Shown piece after piece: positions 5,405 through 45,538 of a stretch of 64,000 nucleotides of DNA. Position numbers and translations under genes: made by a program. Each line of letters starts with the position of its first letter. Position 1 is the stretch's first letter. This DNA is from Jiangella aurantiaca (GTDB taxonomy: Bacteria; Actinomycetota; Actinomycetes; Jiangellales; Jiangellaceae): NCBI RefSeq assembly GCF_004349105.1, contig NZ_SMLB01000002.1, forward strand, positions 124,001-188,000, in the 5' to 3' direction. The notes under the pieces were generated by a model. The model did no database searches. It had not been told where the DNA came from and saw only the letters and a list, made by a program, of their open reading frames with translations.

Positions 5405-5419
5405 GACCTGCGAAATCTC

Positions 5420-20384: not shown

Positions 20385-21980
20385 ATGCACCTGCCACAGC
20401 CCCGCCGGACGCCGGCGTCCCCGCCGGGCAGGCGGCTGATGCGCTCACTGCTGGCCGGTCTCGCGGTCGCCGCGGCGATGACGGCCGGAGCGATCGCGAC
20501 GGCCGCGACGGCCGCGCCGTCCGAGCCGCTCGGACCGGAAGTCATCCGGACGGATCAGCCGCCCACCGGGTACTCCGTCACCTTCAGGTACCAGCCGCCC
20601 CAAGGCGTCGAGTCGGTCCACATCTACGGCGACTGGTTCTACTCCCACCCCGAGAGCGTGACCTGCAACGACTGCGGGGACGGCCGGCACCCGTCGGAAT
20701 GGAGGCTGGGCGACATCGCCGCCACGCCGTGGCGGATCCTGCCGATGGAGCGCGGGGACGACGGAGTCTGGTCGATCACGGTGCCGCTGCCCGCGGGAAG
20801 CTTCCGCTACGCCTTCACCCACGACTGCACCAACGTGCTGGCCACTGGCTGCACGCTGCACGACGACCCGGCGAACCCATGGAAGATCCAGCCTCAGTAC
20901 GCCGGTGCGCCGGGAGCGGTGCGCAGCACGATCTACGTCCCGGAGAGCAAGAAGTTCCCGACCTACGACACCGACTACCAGGCCCCGCCCCGGCCCAACA
21001 AGGCCGGCACCCTGGAGACGCGACGCTACCCGTCCCCGCTGTCCACCAACCCGGTCGGCGTCCACGACATCGTCGTGTACCTGCCGCACGACTACGACCC
21101 CGATCGGGCGACGCCGTATCCGACGCTCTACCTGAGCCACGGCGGTGGCGACCACTCGACCGCCTGGACGATGCAGGGCGTGGCCCACCACATCCTGGAG
21201 AACGCGATCCAGGACGGCGCGGCCCAACCGATGGTCATCGTGTCGACCGACTTCAACGGCCTTCCCGGCGGAAACCTGGGCTACGTCAACGAGCTCAGGA
21301 ACAACGTCATCCCGTTCGTGGAGCAGAACTACAACGTCTCCACCCGGGCCGAGGACCGTGCCTTCGGCGGATTCTCCGCCGGCGGGAGCCGCGCCTACAC
21401 GCTCATGTACGACCACACCGCGCTGTTCGGCTACCACGCCGCCTGGAGCGCGGGCGGACCGCAGGCCAGCCAGGTGCAGATCGACCGCATGAAGGGCGTG
21501 GCCGGCGGAATCATGATCGGCACCGGCCTCCAGGACCGCCTGGGCAACATCGCCGAGAACTCGCAACGCAACGCCGCCGCGCTGAAGGCGGCCGGCGTCG
21601 ACGTCGACGAGTACAACGTTCCGGGCGTCCACACCTGGCACGTCTGGCGGCCATTGCTGAACCACTACCTGCGCGAGCTCGTTTTCCGTGCCACGGCGAC
21701 GGAGCTCGGCATCGACACCGAGCCGGCCGGCGGTTCCGGCAACGTGCGGCTCACCGCCGTTGCCACGATCGATCCCGTGACGACGAGCGTCACCGCACCG
21801 TCGGGCACGGTGGACTTCTACGCCGGCGACCAGTACCTCGGTTCCGCGCCGGTGAGGGACGGCGCTGCCCGATTCCACCAGACCGTCGACGGCGCGCTGC
21901 TCGACGAACCGGTGATCGCCCACTACCGGGGCGACGAGCTGTTCAACGAGTCGCGGAGCACACCCGCCGAGGCTCACTGA
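20385..21980 (+). CDS. Secreted carbohydrate esterase family 1 protein with N-terminal CBM48-like and C-terminal Ig-like domains
   Basis: 531 residues after a GGAGGGAGAGG site. The signal peptide spans about residues 19-44 (LLAGLAVAAAMTAGAIATAA). Residues ~55-170 form a beta-sandwich (SVTFRYQPPQGVESVHIYGD, YAFTHDC) like the CBM48/E-set domains before feruloyl and acetyl-xylan esterases. The alpha/beta hydrolase domain has YPTLYLSHGGGDHSTAW, nucleophile Ser331 in GGFSAGGS and His416 or His419 in PGVHTWH. The last ~90 residues look like an Ig-like repeat (TSVTAPSGTVDFYAGDQYLG). It should cut ester decorations (feruloyl or acetyl) from hemicellulose outside the cell. An IclR-type operator lies upstream. 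The exact ester is not predictable. Confidence 0.82.
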   Translation: MHLPQPRRTPASPPGRRLMRSLLAGLAVAAAMTAGAIATAATAAPSEPLGPEVIRTDQPPTGYSVTFRYQPPQGVESVHIYGDWFYSHPESVTCNDCGDGRHPSEWRLGDIAATPWRILPMERGDDGVWSITVPLPAGSFRYAFTHDCTNVLATGCTLHDDPANPWKIQPQYAGAPGAVRSTIYVPESKKFPTYDTDYQAPPRPNKAGTLETRRYPSPLSTNPVGVHDIVVYLPHDYDPDRATPYPTLYLSHGGGDHSTAWTMQGVAHHILENAIQDGAAQPMVIVSTDFNGLPGGNLGYVNELRNNVIPFVEQNYNVSTRAEDRAFGGFSAGGSRAYTLMYDHTALFGYHAAWSAGGPQASQVQIDRMKGVAGGIMIGTGLQDRLGNIAENSQRNAAALKAAGVDVDEYNVPGVHTWHVWRPLLNHYLRELVFRATATELGIDTEPAGGSGNVRLTAVATIDPVTTSVTAPSGTVDFYAGDQYLGSAPVRDGAARFHQTVDGALLDEPVIAHYRGDELFNESRSTPAEAH

Positions 21981-29621: not shown

Positions 29622-31355
29622 TCAGTGCGACTCGCGAGGTACGGCGGCCCCGCGCGAGCCGACCAGGAAGTCGAAGTCGGCGCCGCGATCGGCCTGCAGC
29701 ACGTGCTGGGTGTAGAGCCAGCCGTAGCCGGTGCCGTGCACCGGCTCCGGAGGCTTCCACGCCGCGTGCCGCCGCTCCAGCTCGTCGTCGTCGACGTCGA
29801 GGGTGAGCGTGCGGGCGGCGACGTCGAGCGTGACGATGTCGCCGGTGCGGACGAACGCCAGCGGCCCGCCGACCGCCGACTCGGGCGCGACGTGCAGCAC
29901 GACGGTGCCGTAGCCGGTGCCGCTCATGCGGCCGTCGCAGATGCGCACCATGTCGGTGACCCCGGCGCGCAGCAGCTTCGTCGGGATCGGCACGTTGGCC
30001 ACCTCCGGCATGCCCGGGTAGCCGCGCGGCCCGGCGCCGCGGATGACGATGACGTCGTCGGCCGCGACGTCGAGGCCGGGGTCGTCGCACACCTCGTGGT
30101 AGGCCTCCGGGGTGTCGAACACGACCGCCCGGCCGGTGTGCCGCAGCAGCGCCGGCGACGCGGCCGACTGCTTGACGACGGCGCCTCCCGGGGCGAGGTT
30201 GCCGCGCAGCACCGCGGTGCCGGAACCGGCCGGCTGCAGCGGCTCGCCCAGCGGGCGGATCACCTCACGGTCCCAGCACTGAGCGGCCGCGACGTTCGCC
30301 CCGACCGACCGCCCGGTGACCGTCAGCGCGTCGCCGTCGAGCAGCCCGGCTTCGGCGAGGTCCCGCAGGACGACCGGCAGGCCGCCGGCGTAGCAGAAGT
30401 CCTCCATGAGGAACCGGCCGGACGGCATGAGGTCGACGACCGTTGGCACCGGCCGGGCCAGCTCGTCGAAGTCGTCGAGCGACAGCTGGACACCGAGCCG
30501 CCCGGCGATCGCCAGCAGATGGATGATCGCGTTGGTCGACCCGCCGATGGCCGCGTTGGCCCGGATGGCGTTCTCGAACGCCGCGCGGGTCATGATCGCG
30601 CTCGGCCGCAGGTCCTCCTCGACCATCGCGACGATGCGCCGGCCGGCCTCCTGCGCGACCTCGAACCGGCGCATGTCGACCGCCGGCCACGTCGCCGACC
30701 CGGGCAGCTGCATGCCCAGCGCCTCCGCCATGCAGGCCATCGTCGACGCCGTCCCCATCGTCATGCAGTGGCCGTTGGACCGGGCCATGCAGCCCTCAGC
30801 GACGGCGACCTCCTCCTGGGTCATCCGGCCGGCCTTGAGGTCCTCCTCGAACTTCCACACGTGCGTGCCCGAACCGACGTCCTGGCCGCGGAACTTACCG
30901 TTGAGCATCGGGCCGCCGGTGACCATGACAGCCGGCAGGTCGACGCTGGCCGCACCCATGAGCAGCCCCGGCGTGGTCTTGTCGCAGCCGGACAGCAGCA
31001 CGACGCCGTCCAGTGGGTTCGCCCGGATCAGCTCCTCGGCCTGCATGGCCAGCAGGTTCCGGTAGAACATCGCCGTCGGCCGGATCAGCGTCTCGCCGGT
31101 CGCCATGACCGGGAACTCCAGTGGGAAACCGCCGGCCTGCCAGACGCCGCGCTTCACCGCTTCGGCGACGCGGTTCAGGTGCGCGTTGCACGGGGCCAGC
31201 TCCGACCACGTCGACGCGATGCCGATGACCGGCCGCCCGTCGAACACCTCGGCGCCGAAGCCCTGGTTGCGCATCCACGACCGGTAGATCATGCCGGACC
31301 GGCCGGCGGCGCCGAACCAGGCCCGGCTGCGGCGGATCGCGTCCTCGGCCGTCAT
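29622..31355 (-). CDS. IlvD/Edd-family sugar-acid dehydratase
   Basis: 577 residues, the length of aldonate dehydratases of this family. The iron-sulfur cluster ligands lie in STWSELAPCNAHL, LLSGCDKTTPG and AVAEGCMARSNGHC. PTKLLRAGVTDMVRICDGRM and SGTGYGTVVLHVAPESAVGG close the active site. The pattern fits L-arabonate, xylonate or galactonate dehydratases better than branched-chain IlvD. It starts with an ATG overlapping the stop of the GH5 gene. With GH51 releasing L-arabinose in the same operon, L-arabonate is a reasonable substrate, though the dehydrogenase and lactonase that would make it are not in this cluster. Confidence 0.85.
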   Translation of the reverse strand: MTAEDAIRRSRAWFGAAGRSGMIYRSWMRNQGFGAEVFDGRPVIGIASTWSELAPCNAHLNRVAEAVKRGVWQAGGFPLEFPVMATGETLIRPTAMFYRNLLAMQAEELIRANPLDGVVLLSGCDKTTPGLLMGAASVDLPAVMVTGGPMLNGKFRGQDVGSGTHVWKFEEDLKAGRMTQEEVAVAEGCMARSNGHCMTMGTASTMACMAEALGMQLPGSATWPAVDMRRFEVAQEAGRRIVAMVEEDLRPSAIMTRAAFENAIRANAAIGGSTNAIIHLLAIAGRLGVQLSLDDFDELARPVPTVVDLMPSGRFLMEDFCYAGGLPVVLRDLAEAGLLDGDALTVTGRSVGANVAAAQCWDREVIRPLGEPLQPAGSGTAVLRGNLAPGGAVVKQSAASPALLRHTGRAVVFDTPEAYHEVCDDPGLDVAADDVIVIRGAGPRGYPGMPEVANVPIPTKLLRAGVTDMVRICDGRMSGTGYGTVVLHVAPESAVGGPLAFVRTGDIVTLDVAARTLTLDVDDDELERRHAAWKPPEPVHGTGYGWLYTQHVLQADRGADFDFLVGSRGAAVPRESH

Positions 31356-32752
31356 CGGGTCACTCTCCGGGTCTTGGATGCGTCGCGAAGGACGTCGGCG
31401 AGTGTGCGGCGCACGTGGCTCTGGTCGAGGGCGAAGGAGTCCGCGAGCCGTTCCGCCTCGTTGGGGGTGACGCCTTCGAACGCCCTCGCGAAGTCGCCCA
31501 CCATGGCCTCGGCGAGCATCACATGACGCACATGCCCGTGGATCCACCGACGAGCACCCCACGGATAGGGCTGGAAGTCGGGGAACTCCCGCTCGAACAG
31601 CTCCTCGATGGGCTCCAGGATGTGCCGGATCTCCCCATCCGTCGACCCCCAGGAGTCGACGCCGAGACGCGCCTTCTTCTCCACGACCGGCGCCACCCGC
31701 TGCGCGTACGGCGAGGCTGGATCGACGGTCACCAGACCCTGCAATCCGATGTCCTTGTACGTCCAGAGCGCCCAGCTCGCCTCGTGCCGGCGATAGATCT
31801 CCAGCTGGTCCTCGAGCAGGCGATAGCGCTGCTCGTCCCGAGCGGGATCGCCGGTGTACACGGGGCCGAACTCACCGACCCAGATGGGCGTGCCGGTCTG
31901 GCGCATGTACTCGGTGCGAGCGAGGAACGTCTTCTCCACGTGGTCGCGGTCGACGTACTCGCCTCTGCTGACGCCGGGATAGGGACCGCCGTCGACGAAG
32001 CCGGGCAGAGCGTAGTCGTGGGCGGTGTAGACGCAGTTCGGCAGCGGGTCGCCCAGCTGGTCGAACTGGGTCGAGTAGCGGTTGCCGTCGAGGAAGAGGA
32101 TGTGGTCCGGATCGACGGCGCGAATGGCCGCTTCCAGGCGCCGGTAGAACGGTCCGATCGTCGTGCCTTCGGCGTCGCCGGGCTCGTTGACCGGGTTGTA
32201 CCCCGCCACCCAGGCGTTGCCCCTGTAGTGCTCGGCCAGTCGCTGCCAGAGGTGCACGACCCGGTCCTGGAACTGCCGCTGGCTCCAGAAGTGGGCCCAC
32301 TGCGTGGGGTTGTCGCTGTGCCAGTGCTGGTTCTGCGCGCCCGGCACCGCATGGAGGTCCAGGATGGTGTATAGCCGGTGCCGTGCGCAGGCGTCCACCA
32401 CCCCATCCAGCAGCGCGAACCCCTCGGGCTCGAGCTCGAACGGCGCCGCATCGTCCTCGAAATGGCGGTAGTTGAACGGGACGCGGACCGAGTTGAGCCC
32501 GAGGCCGGCGAGCAGGGCCGCGTCGTCGTCGGTGAAGAAGACGGAGAGGAAGCGGTCGAAGAACCGCTTGTAGCCCTCCTCGCCGAGGACCCGGCGCAGC
32601 GCCTTGCGCTGCTGCGACTCCGTCCCGGGGTAGCCAGTGATGAAGTTCTCCATGTTCATCCAGCCACCGAGACCGACACCGCGCAACACCACCGGCCTGT
32701 CACCGGCGACGATCCGGCTTCCGTCGACTCTCAGGACGGGTTTCCTGCTCAT
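31352..32752 (-). CDS. Glycoside hydrolase family 5 enzyme, probably intracellular
   Basis: 466 residues. The barrel shows RGVGLGGWMNMENFITGYPG, LNSVRVPFNYRHF and YTILDLHAVPGAQNQ. The acid/base is Glu190 in NPVNEPGD, the nucleophile is Glu294 in IWVGEFGPVY, and LWTYKDIGLQGL follows. About 100 extra residues at the C-terminus (from LFEREFPDF) lack a known module. There is no signal peptide. GH5 members with this long GYPGTE segment are often annotated as exo-acting glucosidases or mannanases, but I cannot name the subfamily. It is between GH51 and the sugar-acid dehydratase, so it probably trims an imported arabinose-bearing oligosaccharide. Confidence 0.83.
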   Translation of the reverse strand: MSRKPVLRVDGSRIVAGDRPVVLRGVGLGGWMNMENFITGYPGTESQQRKALRRVLGEEGYKRFFDRFLSVFFTDDDAALLAGLGLNSVRVPFNYRHFEDDAAPFELEPEGFALLDGVVDACARHRLYTILDLHAVPGAQNQHWHSDNPTQWAHFWSQRQFQDRVVHLWQRLAEHYRGNAWVAGYNPVNEPGDAEGTTIGPFYRRLEAAIRAVDPDHILFLDGNRYSTQFDQLGDPLPNCVYTAHDYALPGFVDGGPYPGVSRGEYVDRDHVEKTFLARTEYMRQTGTPIWVGEFGPVYTGDPARDEQRYRLLEDQLEIYRRHEASWALWTYKDIGLQGLVTVDPASPYAQRVAPVVEKKARLGVDSWGSTDGEIRHILEPIEELFEREFPDFQPYPWGARRWIHGHVRHVMLAEAMVGDFARAFEGVTPNEAERLADSFALDQSHVRRTLADVLRDASKTRRVTR

Positions 32753-32792: not shown

Positions 32793-34301
32793 TCAGCCCA
32801 GCGTCAAGGCGGTCCAGGAGACGGGCGGCAGCGAGACCGTGACCGTGCCGTCGATCAGCGCGGCCGTCGGGTTCACCACCGGACGCACCCGGTCCTGCTG
32901 TTCCAGGGTGTTGGCGGCGTGCGGATCCTTGTCGCCCAGCGTCCACGCGTCGCGGACACCGACCTGGCCGAGCATCCGCACGTCGATCTCGACCTCCGCT
33001 TCTGTCTCCTCGTCGCGGTTGACGAGGAACACCGCCGTTGAGTTGCTGCCGGCGTCGTGCGTCGCCACCGCGTCGATCACGGTGACGTCACCGTGCAAGG
33101 CCGACGTGTACGTTGGGCTGTCCAGCTTGAGTTCCAGCGCCTCGCCGCGCGCCAGTCGCGAGGTGAGCGCGAAGGGGTAGAACGTGGTCTGCCGCCAGGC
33201 CGGTCCTCCCGGCTCGGTCATGATCGGCGCGATGACGTTGACCAGCTGCGCCAGGCTGGCCGACGTCACCCGGTCGGCGTGCCTGATGAGTGAGATGAGC
33301 AGGTTGCCGAAGACCACCGCGTCCATCACCGAGTAGGTGTTCTCGAGCAGCCGGGGTGCGATCGGCCAGTCGTCGATGCCGGTGTGGCGTTCTCGCCTGT
33401 AGCGCGACTGGTACCAGACGTTCCACTCGTCGAAGGAGATGTACATGGTCTTGCTGCTGCGACGCTCGGCCTTGACGTGGTCGGCGGTGGCCGCGACCGA
33501 CTCGATGAACCGGTCCATGTTCACCGCCGAGGCGAGGAAGCTGGCGTAGTCGCCGTCCTTCGGCTCGTAGTAGGCGTGGCACGAGATGTAGTCCACCTCG
33601 TCGTACGTCGCTTCCAGCACGGTCCGTTCCCAGCCGCCGAACGTCGCCATCTGCGCGCTGGAACTGCCGCAGACGACGAGCTCGAGTCCGGGATCGACCT
33701 GCCGCATCGCCCGGGCGGTCTTGGCGGCGAGGCTCGCGTACTCCTCGGCGGAGCCGTGGCCCAGCTGCCACGGCCCGTCCATCTCGTTGCCGAGGCACCA
33801 CATCCTGATGTCGTGAGGCGCCGGCGTGCCGTTCGCGATGCGCAGGTCGGACAGCCGCGTGCCCGAGGGCACGTTGGCGTACTCGAGGACGTCAAGCGCC
33901 TCGTGGACGCCGCGCGTCCCGAGGTTCACCGCGTACATGAGCTCACTGCCGACCTTGCGCAGCCAGGCGGCGAACTCGTCCAGGCCGACCTCGTTCGTCT
34001 CGGTCGAGTGCCAGGCGAGGTCGAGGCGGCGCGGGCGCTGGTCGCGGGGGCCGATGCCGTCCTCCCACCGGTAGCCCGACACGAAGTTGCCGCCGGGATA
34101 GCGGATGGTGGTCACCCCGAGCTCTCGGACCAGGGCGATGACGTCCTCGCGGTATCCCTGCTCATCGGCGGTCGGATGGGTGGGCTCGTAGATGCCGTCG
34201 TAGACGCATCGGCCGAGATGTTCGACGAAGGAGCCGAACAGACGGCGGTTGACGGTGCCGACGGTGAAGTAGGGGTCGATGGTCAGGTGAGCGCGGTTCA
34301 T
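32793..34301 (-). CDS. abfA: GH51 alpha-L-arabinofuranosidase
   Basis: 502 residues, the usual AbfA length. The N-terminus FGSFVEHLGRCVYDGIYEP and IRYPGGNFVSGYRWEDGIGP are diagnostic. The acid/base is Glu173 in CLGNEMDGPWQLGH and the nucleophile is Glu292 in ISFDEWNVWY. The C-terminal beta-sandwich ends with LPPVSWTALTLG. The enzyme is cytoplasmic (no signal) and removes L-arabinofuranose from arabinan or arabinoxylan oligosaccharides. It follows the importer genes by 42 bases and has an AGAGGA ribosome site. Its presence defines the operon as arabinose-releasing. Confidence 0.93.
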   Translation of the reverse strand: MNRAHLTIDPYFTVGTVNRRLFGSFVEHLGRCVYDGIYEPTHPTADEQGYREDVIALVRELGVTTIRYPGGNFVSGYRWEDGIGPRDQRPRRLDLAWHSTETNEVGLDEFAAWLRKVGSELMYAVNLGTRGVHEALDVLEYANVPSGTRLSDLRIANGTPAPHDIRMWCLGNEMDGPWQLGHGSAEEYASLAAKTARAMRQVDPGLELVVCGSSSAQMATFGGWERTVLEATYDEVDYISCHAYYEPKDGDYASFLASAVNMDRFIESVAATADHVKAERRSSKTMYISFDEWNVWYQSRYRRERHTGIDDWPIAPRLLENTYSVMDAVVFGNLLISLIRHADRVTSASLAQLVNVIAPIMTEPGGPAWRQTTFYPFALTSRLARGEALELKLDSPTYTSALHGDVTVIDAVATHDAGSNSTAVFLVNRDEETEAEVEIDVRMLGQVGVRDAWTLGDKDPHAANTLEQQDRVRPVVNPTAALIDGTVTVSLPPVSWTALTLG

Positions 34302-34343: not shown

Positions 34344-35228
34344 CTACTTCAGGCTCCCGATGGCCAGCCCACCGCGCCAATGGCGCTGCAGCGTGAGGAA
34401 GGCGATGATCAGCGGGATGACCGAGACGAGAGACCCCATGATGATGATGCTCCAGAGCGACGTACCGCCGGAGTTGTTGGCCGAGGCGATCCCCTGCCAC
34501 TGACCGATGCCGACCGTCACGGGGTACAGGTCGTTGTCCGACAGCATCGCCAGCGGCAGGAAGTAGTTGTTCCAGGTGGCCACGATCGACAGCAATAGGA
34601 CGGTCACCATCGCGGGTCGCATCAGCGGAAGCGCGACCTGGAGGAATGACCGCACCTCACCCGCACCGTCGACGCGTGCGGCGTCGAGGAGCTCGTCGGG
34701 AACGGCGTCGCGCACGTAGACGTGCATCAGATACACCCCGAACGGGTTGAGCAGCGACGGCAGGATCACCGCCCAGATGGTGTTCGTCAGCCCCAACCGG
34801 GAGAACATGATGAAGGTCGGGATGACCAGCGCGGTGGCCGGCACCATCACCGCGCCCAGCAGGACGGCGAAGCTGAACCGCCGGCCGGCGAAGCGGTACT
34901 TCGCGAAGCCGTAGCCGGCCAGGACGGCCAGCGCGGTGGCGCCGACACCGCCCACGACGGCGTAGAGCGTGGAGTTCAGCAGCCATCGCGCATAGATGCC
35001 GCCGCTGTGGGTGAACAGCTCCTGGAGATTGCCGATGAAATCGACGTTGTCGGAGAACCAGAGCGCGTTCCCTCCGCCGAAGAGTCCGGCGGCGTCCTTG
35101 GAACTGTTGACGACGACCCACCAGAACGGCACCAGGAAGTAGACGAGCAGGAAGCCGAGGAGGACCTGCAGCGGCAGGTAGCGCTGCGGCCGCCGGCGAC
35201 GCGAGGCGACGTCGATGTGTGCGGTCAT
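34344..35228 (-). CDS. Sugar ABC transporter permease, MalG type (arabinose operon)
   Basis: 294 residues. TM1 is LLGFLLVYFLVPFWWVVVNS, and further segments follow around ALAVLAGYGFAKYRF and LGAVMVPATALVIPTFIMF. The EAA loop is LLDAARVDGAGEVRSFLQVA. It begins four bases inside the previous permease stop. Together with the 35225 permease it forms the channel for the oligosaccharide bound by the 36258 lipoprotein. The end lacks the usual VxGxxxGAVKG tail and finishes HWRGGLAIGSLK, a known variant. Confidence 0.9.
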   Translation of the reverse strand: MTAHIDVASRRRRPQRYLPLQVLLGFLLVYFLVPFWWVVVNSSKDAAGLFGGGNALWFSDNVDFIGNLQELFTHSGGIYARWLLNSTLYAVVGGVGATALAVLAGYGFAKYRFAGRRFSFAVLLGAVMVPATALVIPTFIMFSRLGLTNTIWAVILPSLLNPFGVYLMHVYVRDAVPDELLDAARVDGAGEVRSFLQVALPLMRPAMVTVLLLSIVATWNNYFLPLAMLSDNDLYPVTVGIGQWQGIASANNSGGTSLWSIIIMGSLVSVIPLIIAFLTLQRHWRGGLAIGSLK

Positions 35229-36169
35229 GACAGGAAGCTCCCCCGCTTGCGGGTCGCGAACAGGAAGACGTAGACGCAGACGAAGACGACGCCTCCGAGC
35301 GCGAACGAGATGGCCGATCCGTAGTTGAAGTTCGCCAGGCCGAACGCCTGCTGGTACGCGTACATGTTCGGCGTGAAGTCCGGTCCGATCGCGCCGGCGG
35401 CGAGGTCACGGAGGATCTTCGGCTCGTTGAAGAACTGCAGCGTTCCGATCAGCGCGAACACCAGGATGAGGAGCAGCGCCGGCGTGATCAGCGGGATCTT
35501 GATCCGCAGCGTGATCTGCCAGGTACTGGCGCCGTCGATGCGCGCGGCCTCGTACAGGGTCGGATCGATGCCCTGCAACGCGGCGTACAAGATGATCATG
35601 TAGTAGCCGGCCCACTGCCAGGTGACGATGTTGAGCAGGCCGTAGAAGATCAGGTCGTTGCTGAGGAAGTCCGGAGCCGAGGCGCCGAACAAGCCGAAGA
35701 TGTCCCCGAGCGGGCCGAAGTTCTTGCTGTACAGGAACCCCCACATGAGGGCGCCGATGACCGCGGGAATCGCGTAGGGGAGGAAGATCATCAGCCGGGA
35801 GAACCGCGCGAACGCCGACGTGACGATGTCGAGGATCAGCGCCATCGCGAGCGAGATCAGCATCTGGACCGGGATGAGGACGAGCGAGAACCGGATGACG
35901 AACCACGCACCGTCGAGGAAGCTCGGATCGGTGAACGCCTTCGTGTAGTTGTCCAGGAGGACGAAGCTCGTCCCGCCGATCAGCGCCTTCCGGAACAGGC
36001 TGAGGTAGAGGGCGTACACGAGCGGCGCGACGAGGAAGGCGAGGAAGACCACGCCAAACGGCCCGATGAACAGCCACCCGATGAGCTGCTCGCGCAGGGG
36101 TACCTTGGGCGCTTTGCGTCTGGTCTTCTCGGCGCGCGGTGGCGCGGTCTCGCTGATCTGCAGGGTCAT
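35225..36169 (-). CDS. Sugar ABC transporter permease, MalF type (arabinose operon)
   Basis: 314 residues. A basic start (EKTRRKAPKVPLREQ) precedes TM1 (LFIGPFGVVFLAFLVAPLVY). Other segments lie around VLIPVQMLISLAMALILDI and LLILVFALIGTLQFF. The EAA loop is LYEAARIDGASTWQITLRIK. The late part has an insertion (AAGAIGPDFTPNMYAYQQAF) where many relatives have TxGGP. The gene follows the binding protein by 88 bases and overlaps the MalG-type gene. Energy must come from an ATPase encoded elsewhere. Confidence 0.9.
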   Translation of the reverse strand: MTLQISETAPPRAEKTRRKAPKVPLREQLIGWLFIGPFGVVFLAFLVAPLVYALYLSLFRKALIGGTSFVLLDNYTKAFTDPSFLDGAWFVIRFSLVLIPVQMLISLAMALILDIVTSAFARFSRLMIFLPYAIPAVIGALMWGFLYSKNFGPLGDIFGLFGASAPDFLSNDLIFYGLLNIVTWQWAGYYMIILYAALQGIDPTLYEAARIDGASTWQITLRIKIPLITPALLLILVFALIGTLQFFNEPKILRDLAAGAIGPDFTPNMYAYQQAFGLANFNYGSAISFALGGVVFVCVYVFLFATRKRGSFLS

Positions 36170-36257: not shown

Positions 36258-37631
36258 TCACTGGACTGTGAAGCCCTGTTCCTCCGCGTAGCTCACGACG
36301 TCGTCCTGCAGCCGGTCCGCGGCTTCGGAGCCGGTGATCGAGCCCTGGTTGAGCGCACCGAGCTGCTCGGTCATGGCGTCGTAGTAGTACTGCTGCAGCG
36401 GGCTGTAGGTGAAGCCCTCGTAGGCGTTCGCCGCCGGGACGTAGACCTCCTTGTTCGCCTGCTGCCCGCCGAAGAACTCCACCTCGAGGTCGACGAAGGC
36501 CGGGTCCTCCAGCGCGTTGAGGTTCAGCGGGAAGATGACCTGGTTGGTCCAGCCGTCGGTGAGCGACGCCTCGTCGGCGTAGATGCCGAAGGCGACCTTC
36601 GCCGCCAGTTCCGGATCGGAGGCCTGGCTGGTCACCGAGAAGGCCGAGCCGCCCCAGTTCACCTGCACCGGGTTGGCGGGGTCCCACTGCGGCAACGGCG
36701 CGACCGCGAACTGACCGGAGTCCGCTCCTTCGCCCACGCCGGCACCGGTGAGGTAGCCCGGCGCCCAGGCCGCGGAGATGTAGGTGGCGTAGTCGCCGTT
36801 GATCACGCCGGAGATGTACTCCGGAGTGAACTGGTCCTGGGTGCCGACCAGGCCCTTCTCGACGAGGCCGCCCCAGTACTCGAGGACGTCCTTCGACGCC
36901 TGGTCGTTCAGGGCGATGCCGATGTTCTCCGGATCGTCGGTGTCGTAGGCGAACGGGCTCGCGCCCTTCTGGATCTGCAGTGCCATCATGACCGCCGGCA
37001 CGTTGGCGCCGAGGTCACCGAACAGCGGGCCGCCGGCATCGCGCACCGTCTGCGCGGCCTGCTCGTACTCGGCCCACGTGGTGGGTGGCGTGATGCCGTA
37101 CTGCTCGAAGATGTCCTTGCGGTAGATCATCCCCATCGGACCGCCGTCGACCGGCACGCCGTAGACCGCGTCGCCGACCGAGACGTCCTGCCAGGCGCCC
37201 TCGCTGTAGTCGTCCTTGACGTCCTCGTAGCCGTAGTCGCTGATGTCGACGAGTGCGTCCTGCACCTGGAAGGTCGGGATTCGGTCGGCCTCGATCATGA
37301 TGACGTCGGGCGCGCCGGTCCCGGCGGCGATGGCGGTCTGGAACTTCTCGTACTCGTCGCCGCCCTCGCCGACGTTGGTCCAGCACACCTGGACCTCGTC
37401 GTTGAGCTCGTTGAAGTTGTCGACGACCAACTCCATGTTCGGGTACCAGGCCCACAGCGTCACCGCGGGCAGGTCCGGCTTGGGAATGGTGTTCGTGCAG
37501 TTGCTGGCGTCGGACCCGCCGCCACCACCACCATCGCTGCTGCTGGTTCCGTCATCTCCCGACGAGCAGGCGACGAGTGTGCCGGCGAGGACGAGGGTCG
37601 CCGCCGCGGCAAGGAATGGCTTGCGCTTCAT
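36258..37631 (-). CDS. Sugar ABC transporter substrate-binding lipoprotein (arabinose operon)
   Basis: 457 residues. The signal ends at the lipobox TLVAC and is followed by a Ser/Gly linker. The mature protein has VTLWAWYPNMELVVDNFNEL, GAPDVIMIEADRIPTFQVQD, YGVPVDGGPMGMIYRKDIFE, PPTTWAEYEQAAQ and VINGDYATYISAAWAPG, typical of family 1 solute-binding proteins for oligosaccharides. It is the first gene of the minus-strand operon that continues to the IlvD and LacI genes. Its promoter, TTGCCA-N16-TAAACA, is overlapped by a LacI-type palindrome. The ligand is probably an arabino-oligosaccharide given GH51 downstream; this is inference. Confidence 0.9.
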   Translation of the reverse strand: MKRKPFLAAAATLVLAGTLVACSSGDDGTSSSDGGGGGGSDASNCTNTIPKPDLPAVTLWAWYPNMELVVDNFNELNDEVQVCWTNVGEGGDEYEKFQTAIAAGTGAPDVIMIEADRIPTFQVQDALVDISDYGYEDVKDDYSEGAWQDVSVGDAVYGVPVDGGPMGMIYRKDIFEQYGITPPTTWAEYEQAAQTVRDAGGPLFGDLGANVPAVMMALQIQKGASPFAYDTDDPENIGIALNDQASKDVLEYWGGLVEKGLVGTQDQFTPEYISGVINGDYATYISAAWAPGYLTGAGVGEGADSGQFAVAPLPQWDPANPVQVNWGGSAFSVTSQASDPELAAKVAFGIYADEASLTDGWTNQVIFPLNLNALEDPAFVDLEVEFFGGQQANKEVYVPAANAYEGFTYSPLQQYYYDAMTEQLGALNQGSITGSEAADRLQDDVVSYAEEQGFTVQ

Positions 37632-37755: not shown

Positions 37756-37797
37756 TTTATAACGTTGTATGTTTAGCGATAAAGCTGACTATGGCAA
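37756..37797 (-). promoter_or_regulatory. Promoter and LacI-type operator of the arabinose operon
   Basis: On the minus strand, TTGCCA (37797-37792), 16 bases, TAAACA (37775-37770) form a promoter toward the binding-protein gene. The word TTTATAACGTTGTATG (plus strand 37756-37771), centred on AACGTT, covers the -10 and start area. Nearly identical words occur at 41421 and, weaker, 41343 before the tandem esterase gene. The adjacent divergent LacI protein (37913) is the likely binder. Confidence 0.6.
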
Positions 37798-37912
37798 TCC
37801 GCTCCGCCAGTGTCAAGACCGCTCGGCAGCCCTGCGCTCGACACATTTCTGCGCAGGTCGGCCCATAGAATGCGGGTACGGCACGGGCGCGCACGCGGAG
37901 CGAGGAGGACAC

Positions 37913-38947
37913 GTGATCCCGACGATGCACGACGTCGCGCGGGTGGCCGGGGTCTCCATCAAGACCGTCTCGAACGTGATCAACGACTTCCCCCACGTCC
38001 GGCCGTCGACACGCATGCGCGTGCTCTCGGCCATCGAGCAGCTCGGCTACCGGCCCAACCTGTCGGCGCGAGGGCTGCGGTCGGGCCGCACCGGGGTCAT
38101 CGGGCTGGCGGTGCCCGAGCTGCGGCAGAATTACTTCGCCGAGCTCGCCGACTCGATCATCCGTGCGGCGGAGAAGCACGACCTCGGCGTCCTGGTCGAG
38201 CAGACGAGCGGCGATCGCGACCGTGAGATCGCGGTGGTCACCGGCGCCGGACGCCTCCGCCTCACCGACGGGCTGCTGTTCAGCCCGGAACGACTGGGCC
38301 AGGACGACCGCCACCTCCTCCGGCCCACGTTTCCCTTCGTGCTGCTGGGCGAGCGGATCTTCGGTGGCCCCACCGACCACGTGACGATGCACAACGTGAG
38401 CTCGGCGAAGGCAGCCGTCGAACATCTGCTCGGGATCGGCCGGCGGCGCATCGCGCTCATCGGGGCGCACCCGGACCAGCGCGAGGAGGTGCGTCCGGCG
38501 GACCTGCGCCTGCGCGGCTACAAGGCCGCGCTCGAGGCAGCCGCGATCCCCGTCGATCCACAGCTCATCCGAGCCGTGGCGCCGTGGCATCGGGAGAACG
38601 GCGCGGAGGCCATGCGCGACCTCATCGCGGCGGGCATCCCGTTCGACGGCCTGTTCGCCCTCAACGACACGCTGGCGCTCGGTGCGCTGCGCGCACTCGG
38701 CGAAGCGGGCTGGCGCGTCCCCGACGACGTCGCCGTCATCGGGTTCGACGACATCGACGAAGCACGGTTCTCCGTTCCGTCGCTGTCCAGCGTCGATCCC
38801 GGGCGCGACGAGATCGCGGAGACCGCCGTCGAACTCCTCGTCGAGCGCATCAACGAGCGGGACGACGAGCGGCTGCCGCCGCTCCTCGTCAAGTCCGAGT
38901 TCCGGATCGTCGCCCGCGAGTCCACCGGGTTCGGCCGGTCCAGCTGA
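37913..38947 (+). CDS. LacI-family regulator divergent from the arabinose operon
   Basis: 344 residues from the GTG after GAGGAGGAC. The headpiece is PTMHDVARVAGVSIKTVSNV, with hinge ARGLRSGRTGVIGLAV. The sensor domain includes FVLLGERIFGGPTDHVTMHN, GRRRIALIGAHPD, GLFALNDTLALGALRAL and AVIGFDDIDEARFSVPSLSS. It resembles the LacI protein at 28552 in layout, so the operon is flanked by two repressors. The shared region between this gene and the binding-protein gene holds an AACGTT-centred operator. It probably represses both the arabinose operon and the tandem esterase gene at 39017 until an arabinose-containing inducer binds. Confidence 0.9.
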   Translation: MIPTMHDVARVAGVSIKTVSNVINDFPHVRPSTRMRVLSAIEQLGYRPNLSARGLRSGRTGVIGLAVPELRQNYFAELADSIIRAAEKHDLGVLVEQTSGDRDREIAVVTGAGRLRLTDGLLFSPERLGQDDRHLLRPTFPFVLLGERIFGGPTDHVTMHNVSSAKAAVEHLLGIGRRRIALIGAHPDQREEVRPADLRLRGYKAALEAAAIPVDPQLIRAVAPWHRENGAEAMRDLIAAGIPFDGLFALNDTLALGALRALGEAGWRVPDDVAVIGFDDIDEARFSVPSLSSVDPGRDEIAETAVELLVERINERDDERLPPLLVKSEFRIVARESTGFGRSS

Positions 38948-39016: not shown

Positions 39017-41215
39017 TCAGTCCTGCCTGAACAGCAGCGGCGCGAAGTCGATGAGGTTCTTCTGCCACGCATCCCACCCGTGCGGGCCGGGCGTGGGCCC
39101 GTCGTACTCGTACTCGATTCCGAGCTGGTCCATGACGGTCAGGGAGTTCATGAAGGACGGGTAGACGAAGTCCGTGGGATCGCCGACGTAGACCTTCAGC
39201 AGTGTGGTGCCGTCGTTGATCGCCTCGGCGTCGACCCCCGTCGCGCTGCCGAACCCGGCCGAGAACGCTCCGACGTAGGCGAATTTCCCAGGATGCGTCT
39301 TGAGTACGGTGAAGGTCTGCCCCCCGCCCATCGACAGACCGGCGAGGGCGCGGCGGGCCGGATCGTCGGACACGTTGTACCGCTCGAGCGACACGGGGAC
39401 GATGTTCTCGAGCAGCTCGCGGGTGAAGTTCGACGAGTTGCCGTTGCCCATCACCACCACCATCGGCTCGAGGTTCCCGTCGAGGTAGTGGTTGTCGAGG
39501 ATCTGCTTGGCCCGCCCCATCTCGATCCAGTCCGTGTAGTTCTGGCCGCCGCCGTGCTGCAGGTAGAAGACGGGGTAGGGCTCGGCGCGATCGGGGTCGT
39601 ACCCGGGCGGCGTCCAGACGTACGCCTTCCGCTCCGCCCCGGCGACCGTGCTCTGGTACGTCAACGTCTCGACGGTGCCGCCCTGCCCCTCCGGGACGTC
39701 GGCGAGCAGGCGCGCCGACTCTCCGGGGATGAAGAACGTGCTCCAGGTCGGTTCCGTGGTCACCCGGGTCGGGTTCGACGTGTCCTTCGTGGAGACGCGG
39801 TCGACGATGAGCCGGTAGTAGTGGAAGCCGGGCTTCAGCGGGCCGACGGTGGCACGCCACCGGTCACCGACCCGGGACATCTCCACGCGGATCCAGCTGC
39901 CGCCGGGCGCCCAGTTGCCCCACACGGTGACGTTCTGCGCGTCCTTGAACTCCGTGGTCGTCTCGAACGTGACGAACCCGTCCTCGGTGATCCACGGCGT
40001 CGGAGTGGTGCCGGCCGGCGGCTGGCGGAACTCGGCCTCGAGCGGAAGGTGCCCAGGGCTCGGGCCCTCGTCCGGTGCGTCGCGGAACAGGCGCGGCACG
40101 AAGTCGATCAGGTTCTCCTGCCAGGCGTTCCAGTTGTGGCCGCGATCGGGGTTGACGCCGTCGAACTGGTACTCGACGCCGGCCTCGTCGAACTGCCGCA
40201 TCAATCGGTAGTTGTAGTTGTAGGCGAGGTCGGTGACGTTGCCGGTGTACAGCCGCAGCAGCTCGGTGCCCTCGTTGATCTCCTCGGCGTCCACACCACT
40301 GGCGCTGCCGAACACGAATCCCGCGAACGACCCGATGTAGGCGAACTCGCCCGGGTGTTCGAACAGCGTGCTCAGCGTCTGGTAGCCGCCCATCGAGAGC
40401 CCGGCCAGCGCCTGCTGGGACGGACTGTGCGAGATGTTGTAGTCGTGCCGGGCCTCCCGCATGATGTTCCGCAGCAGCTCCTTCTGGAAGTCCGGCACGT
40501 TGCCGTCACCCATCACGACGACCATCGGCTCGATCTCGCCACGGAGCGTGAGGTTGTCGAAGATCTGCTTGGCGCGTCCGACCTCGACCCAGTCGCGGTA
40601 GCCCTGCGCGCTCCCGTGCTGCAGGTACAGCACCGGGTACGGCTCCTTGCGGCCGGCGTCGTAGCCCGGCGGCGTCCAGACGAGCGCGGACCGTTGCCCG
40701 CGCGTGACCGTGCTGCGATACGTCATCGTCTCGACGGTGCCGCCCTGCCCCTGGGGCACGTCGGCCAGGAGGTCGGCGGAGTCACCAGGGACGAAGAAGG
40801 TGCTCCACTCCGGTTCCGACGCGACGCTCGTCGGGTTCGTCGGGTCCTTGACCACCTTCGTGTCGTCCGCGGTGAACTGGTAGTAGTACAGGCCCGGCTC
40901 GAGCGGCCCCATCACCGACGTCCAGTTGCCCCCGCGTCGCGTAAGGCCCCACTGGGCCCAGTTGGCCGACGGGCCGAAGTTGCCCTCGGCGACGATCTGG
41001 GTCACGTCACCGAACGCGGCCTGAGCCTCTTCGGCCGAGATCGTGAACGTGACGAAGCCGTCGTCGTCCACGGCGACCCACGGCGTTTCCGCCATCACCG
41101 CGGGTGGTGCCGCCACCAAGGCGGCCACGGCCATCGCGGCGCCGACGAGGAGGGCCGCCAAGCGCCGCCCGATCCCGATGCGGCGCGTTCGTCTCTGGCG
41201 AGATGCCATCACCAT
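39017..41215 (-). CDS. Secreted protein with two tandem CBM48-CE1 esterase modules
   Basis: 732 residues from the ATG at 41215 (AGAGGA four bases before; a second ATG lies at 41209). The signal peptide (LAALLVGAAMAVAALVAAPP) ends near VMAETP. Module 1 has a sandwich domain (TQIVAEGNFGPSANWAQWG, LYYYQF) and an esterase with Ser274 in AGLSMGGYQ and His in GHNWNAW. Module 2 repeats this with VTVWGNWAPGGSWIRVE, FHYYRL, Ser628 in AGLSMGGGQ and His in GPHGWDAW. Both active sites look complete. The sequence STVxxxxRxAxVWTPPGYD occurs in both. Feruloyl or acetyl esterase activity on arabinoxylan is likely. It is monocistronic. Confidence 0.85.
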   Translation of the reverse strand: MVMASRQRRTRRIGIGRRLAALLVGAAMAVAALVAAPPAVMAETPWVAVDDDGFVTFTISAEEAQAAFGDVTQIVAEGNFGPSANWAQWGLTRRGGNWTSVMGPLEPGLYYYQFTADDTKVVKDPTNPTSVASEPEWSTFFVPGDSADLLADVPQGQGGTVETMTYRSTVTRGQRSALVWTPPGYDAGRKEPYPVLYLQHGSAQGYRDWVEVGRAKQIFDNLTLRGEIEPMVVVMGDGNVPDFQKELLRNIMREARHDYNISHSPSQQALAGLSMGGYQTLSTLFEHPGEFAYIGSFAGFVFGSASGVDAEEINEGTELLRLYTGNVTDLAYNYNYRLMRQFDEAGVEYQFDGVNPDRGHNWNAWQENLIDFVPRLFRDAPDEGPSPGHLPLEAEFRQPPAGTTPTPWITEDGFVTFETTTEFKDAQNVTVWGNWAPGGSWIRVEMSRVGDRWRATVGPLKPGFHYYRLIVDRVSTKDTSNPTRVTTEPTWSTFFIPGESARLLADVPEGQGGTVETLTYQSTVAGAERKAYVWTPPGYDPDRAEPYPVFYLQHGGGQNYTDWIEMGRAKQILDNHYLDGNLEPMVVVMGNGNSSNFTRELLENIVPVSLERYNVSDDPARRALAGLSMGGGQTFTVLKTHPGKFAYVGAFSAGFGSATGVDAEAINDGTTLLKVYVGDPTDFVYPSFMNSLTVMDQLGIEYEYDGPTPGPHGWDAWQKNLIDFAPLLFRQD

Positions 41216-41495: not shown

Positions 41496-42523
41496 TCATA
41501 GGTCCGTCTGGAGAACGCCGCGCTCGCGCAGGTCTGCCCACAGCCCAGGAGGCACGTCGGCCTCCGAGCGTCGCAACGTGGCGGCGACCTGTGCCGCGTC
41601 CCGAACCCCGACGACCGTCGAGATCACAGCGGGATGCGCACGGGCGAAGGCGAGTGCGGCCTCGGGAAGGGTCACGCCCCAGTCCTCGCATGCGGCGGCG
41701 ATGCGGTGTGCTCGCTCGATCACCTTCGGCGGCGCCTGTTCGTAGTCGTAGGTGGCCGTGGTCGGGGGTCGCTCACTGGCGAGCAGGCCCGAGTTGTACA
41801 CACCGGCGATCACGACGCCCACTCCTTCGGCCTGAGCGGCGGGCAGCAGGTCGTACAGCGCCCCTTGCTCCAGCAGGGTGTACCGCCCGGCACACATGAC
41901 GACGTCCACATCGGTCTCCTGGACGAACCGCGCGAGCATGGCCGATCGGTTCATGCCGGCCCGATGGCTCCGATGACGCCTTGGTCACGCAGTGCGATCA
42001 GCGCGGGGATCGCCTCCGTCGCTGCCTCGTGCCAGTGGTCGTCCGGATCGTGCAGGTAGACGATGTCGATGCGGTCGAGTCCGAGGCGGTTCAGGCTCGC
42101 CTCGAAGGACCTGCGGACGCCGTCACGGCTGAAGTCCCAGACTCGCCGGTGATCCGCGGGCACCGCGAAGCCCTCGGCGTCGCGCAGGTGCGCCGTCTCC
42201 GGGGATGGCACCAGCAACCTGCCCACTTTGGTCGAAACGACGTACTCTTCACGCGGGTGCTGCCGCAGCGCCGCGCCCAGTCTGCGCTCGGACAACCCCA
42301 GGCCGTAATGCGGAGCGGTGTCGAAGTACCGGATCCCTGCGGCCCATGCCGCGTCGACGGCGCGGGCGAACGGTCCGTCAGACGTGGCCCGGTACAGGTT
42401 GCCGCCCTGGGCGGCGCCGAATCCCAGGCCGGTCAACTCGACGCCGGGCCTGCGGGGCAGCTGCCGGCGGTCCATCAGTGGCCGAGCCGGCCGGAGTCGC
42501 CGCGGTAGACCACTGCCGTCCAT
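41496..42523 (-). pseudogene. Aldo/keto reductase (fucose/aldose dehydrogenase-like) split by a frameshift
   Basis: Two frames together make one aldo/keto reductase. The upstream part, from the ATG at 42523 behind GGAGGAGCG, has ELTGLGFGAAQGGNLYRAT, FDTAPHYGLGLSERRLG, EYVVSTKVGR and DIVYLHDPDDHW with the catalytic Asp, Tyr, Lys and His. It stops at TGA 41951 after GVIGAIGPA. The downstream part begins MNRSAMLARFV at 41954 and continues through VVMCAGRYTLLEQ to EADVPPGLW. Relatives read GxGMNRSAM without a break, so one base (probably a G near 41955) is missing. This is either a true mutation or a sequencing error. Intact relatives oxidise L-fucose or D-arabinose, which would suit this operon. 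Confidence 0.75.
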
Positions 42524-42601
42524 CGCTCCTCCATCGTTGGTCCGTGGTGGCCGGTCGTGGGGCGCACCGCTGCGGCGGCGCGCCACACGACCGGGCTCGT
42601 C

Positions 42602-45538
42602 TCAGGTGACGCTGAAGTCGGCGAAGCTGAACTGACCGGTCACGCCGGCTGCGTGGGAGGTGGCGATCAATCCGGCGTCCTGGGTGGACGCGATGCCGGC
42701 CAGCGTCACCGTGGGGCCGACCTTGATCCACGTGCTGCCGTTCGTCGAGTAGTAGCCGCTGACCTGGGTGCCTTCGCGGACCAGGCGGACCCAGGCCGGC
42801 GCTCGGACGCCGCCGGCTCCGCTGAAGGAATCGAGGTACCCGTTGCCGTTGGCGTCCCACTGGAACGCGACGCCGTTCCCCGGTGTGACGACCATGACGG
42901 CGTAGCCGGCAGACGATCCGGCGGCGGTGACGTCGTTGCGGATCACCACACCGGCCTTGGCCCACGGGTTGGTGTTGTCCATCTGAGTGACCCGCGCCGT
43001 CACGGTCGCCGTGTCGCCGACCGCGTCATCCTGGTAGATGGTGCCGTACTCGTCGAAGGCGCCGCCGCCGTCCTGCCAGATGTCCGCGCCCGCGGTCAGG
43101 ATGGCGAACTGGCCGCCGGCCTCGGCGAACCGGCTCGGTACCGACCCGTAGCTGGCGAGGGACGTCAGCGGGTTCAGCGCGGTCAGCGTCAGCGACCTGT
43201 TCACCGCATACTGCAGGCCGTCGGCACGCAGGCTCAGCGCCGCCTGCACCGTGGCCTGGCTGACCGGGCTCGAGAACGACGCCGGCGCGGTGACCGTCCA
43301 CGACACGGTGGCCGACGCGCCCGGGTCCAGTGCCGGGCTCAGCGGCTTGCCCTGACGTACGGCCGCCCAGCCCTCGGGAACGCTGATCCCGGCGGTCAGT
43401 CCGGACACCCGCTCGTCGGTCAGGTTCGCGACCGTGGCGGTCACCGTGGTGGCGCCGCCGGCGTCCAGGCTCACCGGATCGGCCGTCAGGAAGGCCCCGA
43501 CCGGCGGGCGCTGGGGATCTGCCGGGCCGCGGTACTTCCCCTCGGGCCCAGCCTCGAAGATCACTCGGCTGGCCTCGATCGGGAGGTTGCCACCGGTGAC
43601 GGCGACGTTGTCGCGGACGATGTTGCCGCGGCTACCGTTGACGAGGCCGGTGATGGCCGAGTTGGTCGCGTAGTTGCCGATGAGCGTGAGGTCGCCGGTG
43701 CGGTTGCCGTTCTGGTTGTTCGCGTGCGCCCACTGGCCGGCGTTGTTGAGGAAGACGTTGCCCGACGCGGAGATGTAGCGGGAGCCCTCGTCGAAGTAGA
43801 GACCGAGCTGCCGGCTGTTCTCGCAGAGGTTCTCGTCGATCGTGCTGCCCGGCATCGCCGACAACGTGTAGATGCAGCCGGCGTCGAACATCGTCTGGAT
43901 GACGTTGCGCACGTAGTTGCCCACGATGCGCACGTCCTTCAAGGTCGTCGGCGTCTCGTAGATCGGCTGGAAGTCGTAGAGGCCACGATTGATGTACTCC
44001 GGACTGCCGCCGGGGTCGTTCGCCCCCCAGCCGTAGCCGACGCCGATGCCCGTGTAGGGCATGTCGGACACGTAGTTGTGCTCGATGGTCAACCCGCTGA
44101 CGTAGCTGGCGAAGATCGCGTCCTGGTCGAGATATTCGAGCGCGGTGGAGTACACGCGGTTGTTGCTGATCAGTATGTCCTTGTTCACCATGCGCAGGTC
44201 GGGTGGGTGGTGAGCGTCCGGCTGCACGCCTCCGACGACGATGCCGCCGCCCGCGCTGGCGGTGAAAGTGCTGCCCACGACGGAGACGTCGCTGGCGCCC
44301 AGGCCGACGCCCGTGGAGTGGGCGTTGGCATCGTTCCCGATGCCCAGGCCGACCGATCCCAGGTTCACGAACGTGCCGTCGACGACGCTGATGTTCTCGG
44401 CCGCCGACACCTGCACCGCCGCCGGGGCCTGCCACCAGTGGTTGCGGGATGCCTCGAAGCCGCGGCAGCCGACGGCGCACGACGTGAACGCGTCAGCGGG
44501 CCGGTCCGGCTGCACGCCGTTGATGAACGTGCCGGTCTGCTGGTTGGCGTAGCCGTTCGAGGAACTGGGGTGCAGCCACGTCGTCCCGGTGAAGGTGATG
44601 CCCTCGAAGCGCAGGTTCCGAACGGGCTCGTCGTACGTGCCACCCACCTCGACCAGCGTCTCCAGCCGGGGCAGCTCGACCGTGGCGCTGCTCAGGTCTT
44701 GTCCGTCGAGCGGCTTGTAGTACAGAACGCCCGCCGCCGTGTCGAGATACCACTCGCCGCCCTCGTCGAGGAAGCTCTTCGAGTTGAGCAGGAAGTACCG
44801 CGGCGTCCGGAAGGGAGAGGTCACGGAGTCGTAGCCGTAGGTGTTGTTGTCCCAGGCCGGCTGCTGCATGACGACGGTCGTGCCGGAGATGCTCTGCACG
44901 GGTGCGAACCGGTTGGTGAACGACTGCAGCGCCTGGAACTCGATCCGCTCCTGCTGCGGAAGATCCGCCAGGTAGGCGAGATTCGGATCGTTGAGCGTGA
45001 AACCGGTCGGGTTGAGGGTGATGGCCGTCCGGGGCAGGCTGATCCGCGCCTTCTGAGCCACGACGCCGTTCACATAGAGCTGCCGGCTGTCGAAACCGGT
45101 TCCGACGTCGGCCTTGTAGACGCCGGTCGTAGGGTCGTCGAGCTCCCAGCCCGTGACGGGCCGTGCGCCACTCAAGACCGGCTCGGCGCCCGGTGCGGCC
45201 TGCCAGGTCACGGTGTGACCGTCGCGCCCGGAGTCGTCGGCGTCGAATCGCAGCGGCTGGTCGAGCCGGTAGGTGCCGTCGAGCAGCTGCACGGTGACGT
45301 CGCCGTCGTCCGCCAGATCGCGGACGCGGCGCTGGGTCTCCTCCAGCGTCGCCAGCGGCTCGGCCCGGGTGCCTGGGCCGGCGTCATCGGCGCCGGGCGC
45401 ACCGGTCGGCGCCACGACGATCACCTGCGCGGTCTGCGCGGCGGCCGGTGGCGCGGCGGCGAGCACCGTGGTGACAGTGACTGCTGCGATGGCCGCGGCA
45501 GCCGTCGTTCGTACGTTCAGGTCGCGTAAGAGACGCAC
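42602..45538 (-). CDS. Large secreted beta-helix protein, possibly GH141-like
   Basis: 978 residues. The signal peptide (IAAVTVTTVLAAAPPAAAQ) is followed by VVAPTGAPGADDAGPGTRAE and TVQLLDGTYRLDQPLRFDAD, then TVTWQAAPGAEPVLSGARPV. This opening is typical of beta-helix glycosidases such as GH141. Coils follow to about residue 680 (DILISNNRVYSTALEYLDQD, CIYTLSAMPGSTIDENLCEN). Then come an NEW3-like sandwich (DPVSLDAGGATTVTATVANL) and a C-terminal DUF1349 or CBM-like domain ending QFSFADFSVT. It probably attacks a branched plant polysaccharide outside the cell. It belongs to the operon of the 48639 importer. The family name is tentative because I see no diagnostic catalytic motif. Confidence 0.72.
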   Translation of the reverse strand: MRLLRDLNVRTTAAAAIAAVTVTTVLAAAPPAAAQTAQVIVVAPTGAPGADDAGPGTRAEPLATLEETQRRVRDLADDGDVTVQLLDGTYRLDQPLRFDADDSGRDGHTVTWQAAPGAEPVLSGARPVTGWELDDPTTGVYKADVGTGFDSRQLYVNGVVAQKARISLPRTAITLNPTGFTLNDPNLAYLADLPQQERIEFQALQSFTNRFAPVQSISGTTVVMQQPAWDNNTYGYDSVTSPFRTPRYFLLNSKSFLDEGGEWYLDTAAGVLYYKPLDGQDLSSATVELPRLETLVEVGGTYDEPVRNLRFEGITFTGTTWLHPSSSNGYANQQTGTFINGVQPDRPADAFTSCAVGCRGFEASRNHWWQAPAAVQVSAAENISVVDGTFVNLGSVGLGIGNDANAHSTGVGLGASDVSVVGSTFTASAGGGIVVGGVQPDAHHPPDLRMVNKDILISNNRVYSTALEYLDQDAIFASYVSGLTIEHNYVSDMPYTGIGVGYGWGANDPGGSPEYINRGLYDFQPIYETPTTLKDVRIVGNYVRNVIQTMFDAGCIYTLSAMPGSTIDENLCENSRQLGLYFDEGSRYISASGNVFLNNAGQWAHANNQNGNRTGDLTLIGNYATNSAITGLVNGSRGNIVRDNVAVTGGNLPIEASRVIFEAGPEGKYRGPADPQRPPVGAFLTADPVSLDAGGATTVTATVANLTDERVSGLTAGISVPEGWAAVRQGKPLSPALDPGASATVSWTVTAPASFSSPVSQATVQAALSLRADGLQYAVNRSLTLTALNPLTSLASYGSVPSRFAEAGGQFAILTAGADIWQDGGGAFDEYGTIYQDDAVGDTATVTARVTQMDNTNPWAKAGVVIRNDVTAAGSSAGYAVMVVTPGNGVAFQWDANGNGYLDSFSGAGGVRAPAWVRLVREGTQVSGYYSTNGSTWIKVGPTVTLAGIASTQDAGLIATSHAAGVTGQFSFADFSVT

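Follow-up and report, generated by a model that had tools for sequence, protein, structure and literature searches.

Recurrent decay of one active site among homologues of a tandem CBM48-CE1 esterase from Jiangella aurantiaca

The locus and its tandem esterase gene

The window, that is the whole 64,000-nucleotide stretch of Jiangella aurantiaca DNA analysed here (contig NZ_SMLB01000002.1, positions 124,001 to 188,000), contains a tandem esterase gene that is encoded with an arabinofuranoside/oligosaccharide uptake locus. The genes concerned, in coordinates of the window, are the following.

31352..32752, minus strand: GH5-type glycoside hydrolase
32793..34301, minus strand: GH51 arabinosylfuranosidase ArfA (NF051901, 719 bits against a cutoff of 625)
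34344..36169, minus strand: two sugar ABC permeases
36258..37631, minus strand: sugar ABC transporter substrate-binding protein
37769..38947, plus strand: LacI-type regulator adjoining the esterase (Pfam and synteny)
39017..41215, minus strand: tandem CBM48-CE1 esterase gene, 732 aa plus stop (open reading frame and Pfam)

The presence of ArfA links the locus to arabinofuranosyl side chains, and the neighbouring genes point to arabinoxylan as the target, with removal of its acyl groups, putatively feruloyl or acetyl, as the most likely function of the esterase. A starch role of CBM48 was considered and set aside; the locus encodes an arabinosylfuranosidase and proteins of sugar uptake. An Rfam search of the window gave no match to an RNA element. 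On the other side of the esterase gene lies an aldo/keto-reductase-like gene, recognized by eye (41496-42586, minus strand), which is split into two frames (42586-41951 and 41954-41496) with an ATGA overlap; the split is either a genuine frameshift or an artefact of assembly. It is followed by a gene for a 978-aa right-handed beta-helix protein (42602-45538, minus strand), which has a NEW3 domain and matches GH141 below threshold, and which may be another enzyme acting on side chains of xylan or pectin.

The features of the tandem esterase are given below, with the number of non-redundant homologues in which each catalytic residue is present.

41090..41215, minus strand: probable signal peptide, residues 1-42 (by eye: Arg-rich n-region, hydrophobic core, AVMA end)
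40082..41083, minus strand: module 1 (M1), residues 45-378, with CBM48 at about 45-158 and CE1 at about 159-378
40394..40396, minus strand: M1 nucleophile Ser274 (47/80)
40229..40231, minus strand: M1 acid Asp329 (80/80, including homologues without the M1 Ser and His)
40136..40138, minus strand: M1 His360 (35/80)
39020..40030, minus strand: module 2 (M2), residues 396-732, with a linker to about 405, CBM48 at about 406-512 and CE1 at about 513-732
39332..39334, minus strand: M2 nucleophile Ser628 (80/80)
39170..39172, minus strand: M2 acid Asp682 (78/80)
39080..39082, minus strand: M2 His712 (79/80)

Both Pfam and the predicted structure give the layout CBM48-CE1-CBM48-CE1. The original prediction of one polypeptide with two complete CBM48-CE1 modules is borne out by the open reading frame, whose minus-strand orientation that prediction did not give, by Pfam (PF00756 Esterase at 1.1e-31 in two stretches; PF16561, the CBM48-like AMPK1_CBM, at 1.8e-6, with two stretches at E<=1) and by the matches of each module alone to solved CBM48-CE1 esterases (5e-36 for M1, 3e-54 for M2). 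In the predicted structure the CE1 domain of M1 matches the XynZ FAE (1jjf, Z 30.7) and M2 matches CBM48-CE1 chains. A CBM48 lies directly N-terminal to CE1 in M2, which aligns through it with 8bbp (model 359-688), and the CBM48 region of M1 is aligned with the solved CBM48-CE1 esterases by sequence. Both modules carry the GxSxG elbow and a Ser-His-Asp triad (S274/D329/H360 and S628/D682/H712); the motifs cited in the original prediction, GLSMGGYQ and GHNWNAW in M1 and GLSMGGGQ and GPHGWDAW in M2, are all present, and the catalytic His residues align. The modules share 55% identity in the tree alignment (179/324 in a pairwise one). Taken together, these features identify the product as a predicted secreted CBM48-CE1 carbohydrate esterase with two head-to-tail copies per chain.

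The CBM48 domains differ at E77/W432 and F80/W435 (M1/M2), the Trp pair of M2 being conserved, and sugar contact may be concentrated in M2, with W432/W435 in place of Glu77/Phe80. In alignments with solved chains the loop after the VVVM-NG strand is mostly missing from both modules, and this reduction suggests that both pockets may be open.

Origin and spread of the tandem

The nearest named relatives are in Jiangella rhizosphaerae (91%) and J. anatolica (88%), and 28 of the 29 loci from named genomes match over most of the query, the other being an interrupted second copy in Ruania. Full-length tandems occur in 9 of 22 genomes of the family to which the window belongs. At the class level 17 of 393 genomes match at E<=1e-40 and, among the places listed, these are full-length tandems except for one that is split by an insertion lying inside its reading frame; at the phylum level the single matching genome among 396 is that of the window itself. 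Matches are further found in all 15 genomes of one genus, in 40/297 genomes of the family of that genus and in 5/299 of another family. The distribution is thus patchy but consistent, and the tandem is conserved across several Actinomycetes families. No clean single-module descendant was found in the surveys of the class, of the phylum, of that genus and of the latter two families; the exceptions listed are the split copies of genome G402, contig-end pieces from G401 and, in G814, a frame of 102 aa.

The homologues compared below derive from 95 tandem open reading frames, which were reduced to 80 by removal of identical or contained sequences; the split or partial L033/L100, L079/L089, L087/L091, L080 and L088 and the duplicate fragment L055 fall outside the 80. 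Of the 80 homologues, 78 make up set A1 and 62 make up set A2. In a tree from which L009 and L025 were left out, M1 and M2 fall on opposite sides of a branch (SH-like 95/96). The split is retained when single-module paralogues and PDB chains are added (SH-aLRT 98/96), and M1 and M2 together stand apart from these paralogues and the three PDB chains (96) in a tree of 34/80 homologues, where the outgroup of three PDB chains and 13 single-module paralogues meets them on long branches. The formation of separate clades by M1 and M2 across several families indicates one old duplication that preceded the spread over these families, and rules out a recent duplication in Jiangella.

Single-module relatives are also present near tandems. 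A CE1 esterase gene with an Ig-like tail (20385-21980, plus strand) lies in the same locus region at about 19 kb from the tandem, to which its product is 33% identical over residues 510-724; unlike the tandem it has one module, and it belongs to a clade separate from M1 and M2. Similar single CE1 genes lie no more than 6 kb from the tandem in the Microbacterium loci L009, L011, L014, L019 and L031.

Active-site conservation in the two modules

Five features were scored in each module: the Ser, Asp and His of the triad, both glycines of GxSxG and the HG oxyanion motif. All five are present in M2 of 78 of the 80 homologues, the exceptions being a sequence cut by a contig end (L025) and a divergent paralogue (L101), versus 29/80 for M1, in which the HG oxyanion motif is found in 30/80. 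The M1 triad is lost in 46/80, which is no measure of prevalence, since about half of the homologues come from one family (f17) and the contig scan relied on peptide patterns taken from the window protein, those of both His motifs included. On a 78-row tree built from M2 columns only, with L025 and L101 (which also has a TAG) omitted, parsimony requires at least three changes in the state of the M1 triad: one in a clade of 41 rows, nearly all from f17 and joined by a second copy in Plantactinospora (L094), one in a clade of three rows (L066, L067, L125) and one in Ruania L032. Scored singly on the same tree, the M1 Ser requires 12 changes and the M1 His two. Parsimony alone does not separate gain from loss of the M1 motifs; loss is the natural reading because the motifs are present in M2, in single-module homologues and in solved enzymes. 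A further group from Plantactinospora, Virgisporangium, Jidongwangia and others (L015, L016, L024, L026, L027, L116) keeps the M1 Ser, Asp and His, and its members show either a changed elbow or loss of the HG motif.

The reverse pattern is seen in Microbacterium, in which M1 stays GLSMGG and M2 varies (GLSAGG or GLSLGG, NHGGGQSW); the variation of M2 next to a fixed M1 implies that selection acts differently on the two sites from one lineage to another. In Microbacteriaceae loci such as L012, L018 and L022, M2 has GLSAGG or GLSLGG and NHGGGQ(S/T)W in place of GLSMGG and QHGGGQNY, which suggests a change in M2 specificity in that lineage.

The differences around the active sites that were noted originally between the modules of the window protein are stable in part. 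The contrast of SMGGYQ with SMGGGQ does not hold, as the M1 elbow of close relatives reads SMGGFQ, SMGGGQ or SMGGSQ; the residues just before the His do differ consistently (N355/T708, D357/G710, G359/P711), each being conserved in at least 90% of the 33 homologues whose M1 triad is intact, in M1 as in M2. Two differing modules with intact triads are likewise supported for the window protein and its nearest lineage, where 9 of 9 unique sequences have all five features in both modules.

Several observations bear on whether an M1 without its triad is still maintained. For the CE1 part of decayed-M1 proteins the median dN/dS is 0.36 in M1 versus 0.21 in M2 of the same pairs, and M1 is also the faster module in intact-M1 proteins (0.20 versus 0.11); these values were obtained by NG86 from disjoint pairs only (21 and 14) and are rough in such high-GC genes. 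With ratios below 1, selection on the decayed M1 appears to be relaxed yet still constraining. AlphaFold2 (AF2) models of the window protein (pLDDT 94.3, pTM 0.89) and of a decayed relative lacking both the M1 Ser and the M1 His (L105; pLDDT 93.0, pTM 0.89) are of similar quality, and the M1 CE1 of the latter superimposes on AmFae1A (5cxx) with a Z of 27.0 and an rmsd of 2.1 over 227 aligned residues, so that the decayed M1 is predicted to fold fully. A pTM of 0.89 for two equal modules would imply a fixed relative placement and does not identify the contact face.

The genomic setting is shared as well. The binding-protein gene adjoining many tandems of the largest decayed clade is 77-82% identical to that of the window (79% for L105), and at least 41 of the 80 homologues lie near such a binding protein (at least 45% identity) or ArfA, in a set where many loci have flanks of 1.5 kb only.

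Disrupted copies of M1 were also observed. In Ruania albidiflava a second copy (L033 3562-7749) has its M1 broken by a transposase-encoding insertion with reverse-strand frames at 4683-5651 and 5678-5998, and the neighbouring tandem copy, L032, is the one that has lost the M1 Ser. Both copies in G402 (L079, L087) have an M1 frameshift with missing residues and M2 in another frame; as they are found twice in one genome, these frameshifts are perhaps real.

Roles of the two modules and comparison with known systems

The loss of the M1 triad on at least three occasions with persistence of the tandem suggests that M2 is the conserved catalyst and that M1 is kept at least in part for a non-catalytic role. 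The reading somewhat favored here is that M1 is kept at least partly for such a role, likely as a covalent partner or as a xylan-holding arm, and it counts in favor of this reading that decayed and intact tandems have the same neighbor, the binding-protein gene. M2 would be the obligatory catalyst, acting through the usual Ser-His-Asp acyl-enzyme route as judged from its triad and fold, and M1 would, as a best guess, be a covalently attached partner that replaces the second protomer of a CBM48-CE1 homodimer, or else the arm that holds xylan. Fusion of two units could thereby provide a homodimer-like pair within a single chain, and one of the active sites would then be free to decay. More tentatively, the tandem can be viewed as a fused homodimer of which one half has repeatedly become a pseudo-esterase serving as a structural or substrate-holding partner, with Jiangella retaining the ancestral two-site state; by the triad criterion its M1 is probably still a second esterase. 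Conservation of the M1 site throughout the Jiangella lineage argues that M1 is used there and so counts against the non-catalytic role, as do the faster evolution of M1 than of M2 in intact-M1 proteins and the chance that, where M1 has decayed, its former chemistry is carried out by other CE1 enzymes of the same genome.

The two active sites were originally proposed as the reason for the tandem, serving two ester types or densely decorated xylan. As a family-wide account this is not supported, with at least one M1 feature missing in 51 of the 80 homologues and the tandem persisting, and the tandem is probably not kept just for its two active sites. Two working sites are possible in the lineage of the window, and so, in Jiangella, is action on two ester types or dense decoration, although this would not be what keeps the tandem in the family as a whole. 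A division of labor between two working esterases of different specificity, as in DmCE1B of Dysgonomonas mossii (PMC8040265), is a rather unlikely general explanation; it draws on the intact triads of the Jiangella lineage and on the stable differences next to the His and in the CBM48 domains, and is opposed by the instability of the elbow difference and by the repeated loss of the M1 site from tandems that persist with their neighboring uptake gene. Improbable, too, is a benefit of dosage or avidity, in which two like sites of the same specificity and two CBM48s raise turnover on densely decorated xylan: the identity and common fold of the modules would suit it, but it leaves unexplained why the tandem rather than a single module survives the death of M1, with full-length tandems being what the class-level survey finds among the places listed, apart from the one split by an insertion. 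The view of M1 as a functionless relic under relaxed selection and heading for loss accommodates its higher dN/dS after decay and the disrupted copies in G402 and Ruania, and is nonetheless improbable given ratios well under 1, an Asp329 retained in all 80 homologues, the whole fold predicted for L105 and the near absence of single-module descendants from the genomes surveyed.

The family offers a natural experiment, in which the same tandem occurs with both sites or with only one. Comparison of a Jiangella protein with a decayed-M1 relative would show whether the second module acts as a second catalyst or as a partner, and would caution against inferring two activities from two CE1 annotations.

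Among known systems, the closest solved structure to M2 is wtsFae1B (6RZN, 8BBP, 8BF3), a single CBM48-CE1 feruloyl esterase with the same domain order (Z 36.9, rmsd 2.3, 323 aligned). Unlike the tandem, its crystal construct has one module; it is 39% identical to M2 and 32% to M1 over the available stretch, and is longer by about 16 residues between the VVVM-NG strand and the next helix. Bi1033-CE1 and Bi1039-CE1 of Bacteroides intestinalis (6MOU, 6MOT, 6NE9) likewise combine an Ig-like (CBM48-type) domain with CE1, with one module per chain and pairing as homodimers in place of the fusion. Their dimers involve both domains (PMC7815789), and a common dimer interface to which both domains contribute is reported for known CBM48-CE1 structures (PMC8040265, PMC7815789).

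CE1-CE1 fusions have been published for Bacteroidota. According to PMC8040265, DmCE1B has two CE1 domains sharing 35% identity that flank one CBM48, the N-terminal CE1 being a feruloyl/acetyl esterase and the target of the C-terminal one elusive; no affinity was found for the DmCE1 CBM48s, and the full-length protein is reported to be dimeric in solution, from which it follows that fusion need not replace dimerization, a point against the partner model. The window protein is similar in having two CE1 domains in a secreted chain and a xylan locus, and has the CBM48-CE1 fold of 7B5V/7B6B, which comprise the CBM48 and C-terminal CE1 of DmCE1B (Z 32.5, rmsd 2.7, 320 aligned). It differs in having two CBM48 domains rather than two CE1 domains around a single one, and in the 55% identity of its modules. 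On this architecture, and on the tree with its small, long-branched outgroup, the tandem as a whole is rejected as an orthologue of DmCE1B, and the duplication in the window protein is, on these grounds, judged independent. Searches of open-licence literature, by titles and the starts of abstracts, yielded nothing on a CBM48-CE1 tandem from Actinobacteria or on a pseudo-esterase of the CE1 family, and the papers retrieved on esterases in Jiangella did not mention the genus; as far as the literature so searched shows, a chain of two CBM48-CE1 units, one of which has repeatedly lost its active site, is undescribed. Fll4 of Flavimarina (CE6-CE1a-CE1b) also has two fused CE1 domains and, unlike the window protein, a CE6, and no activity is reported to have been detected for its CE1b (PMC12247016). 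In both of the studied CE1-CE1 fusions, DmCE1B and Fll4, one activity is assigned and one is elusive.
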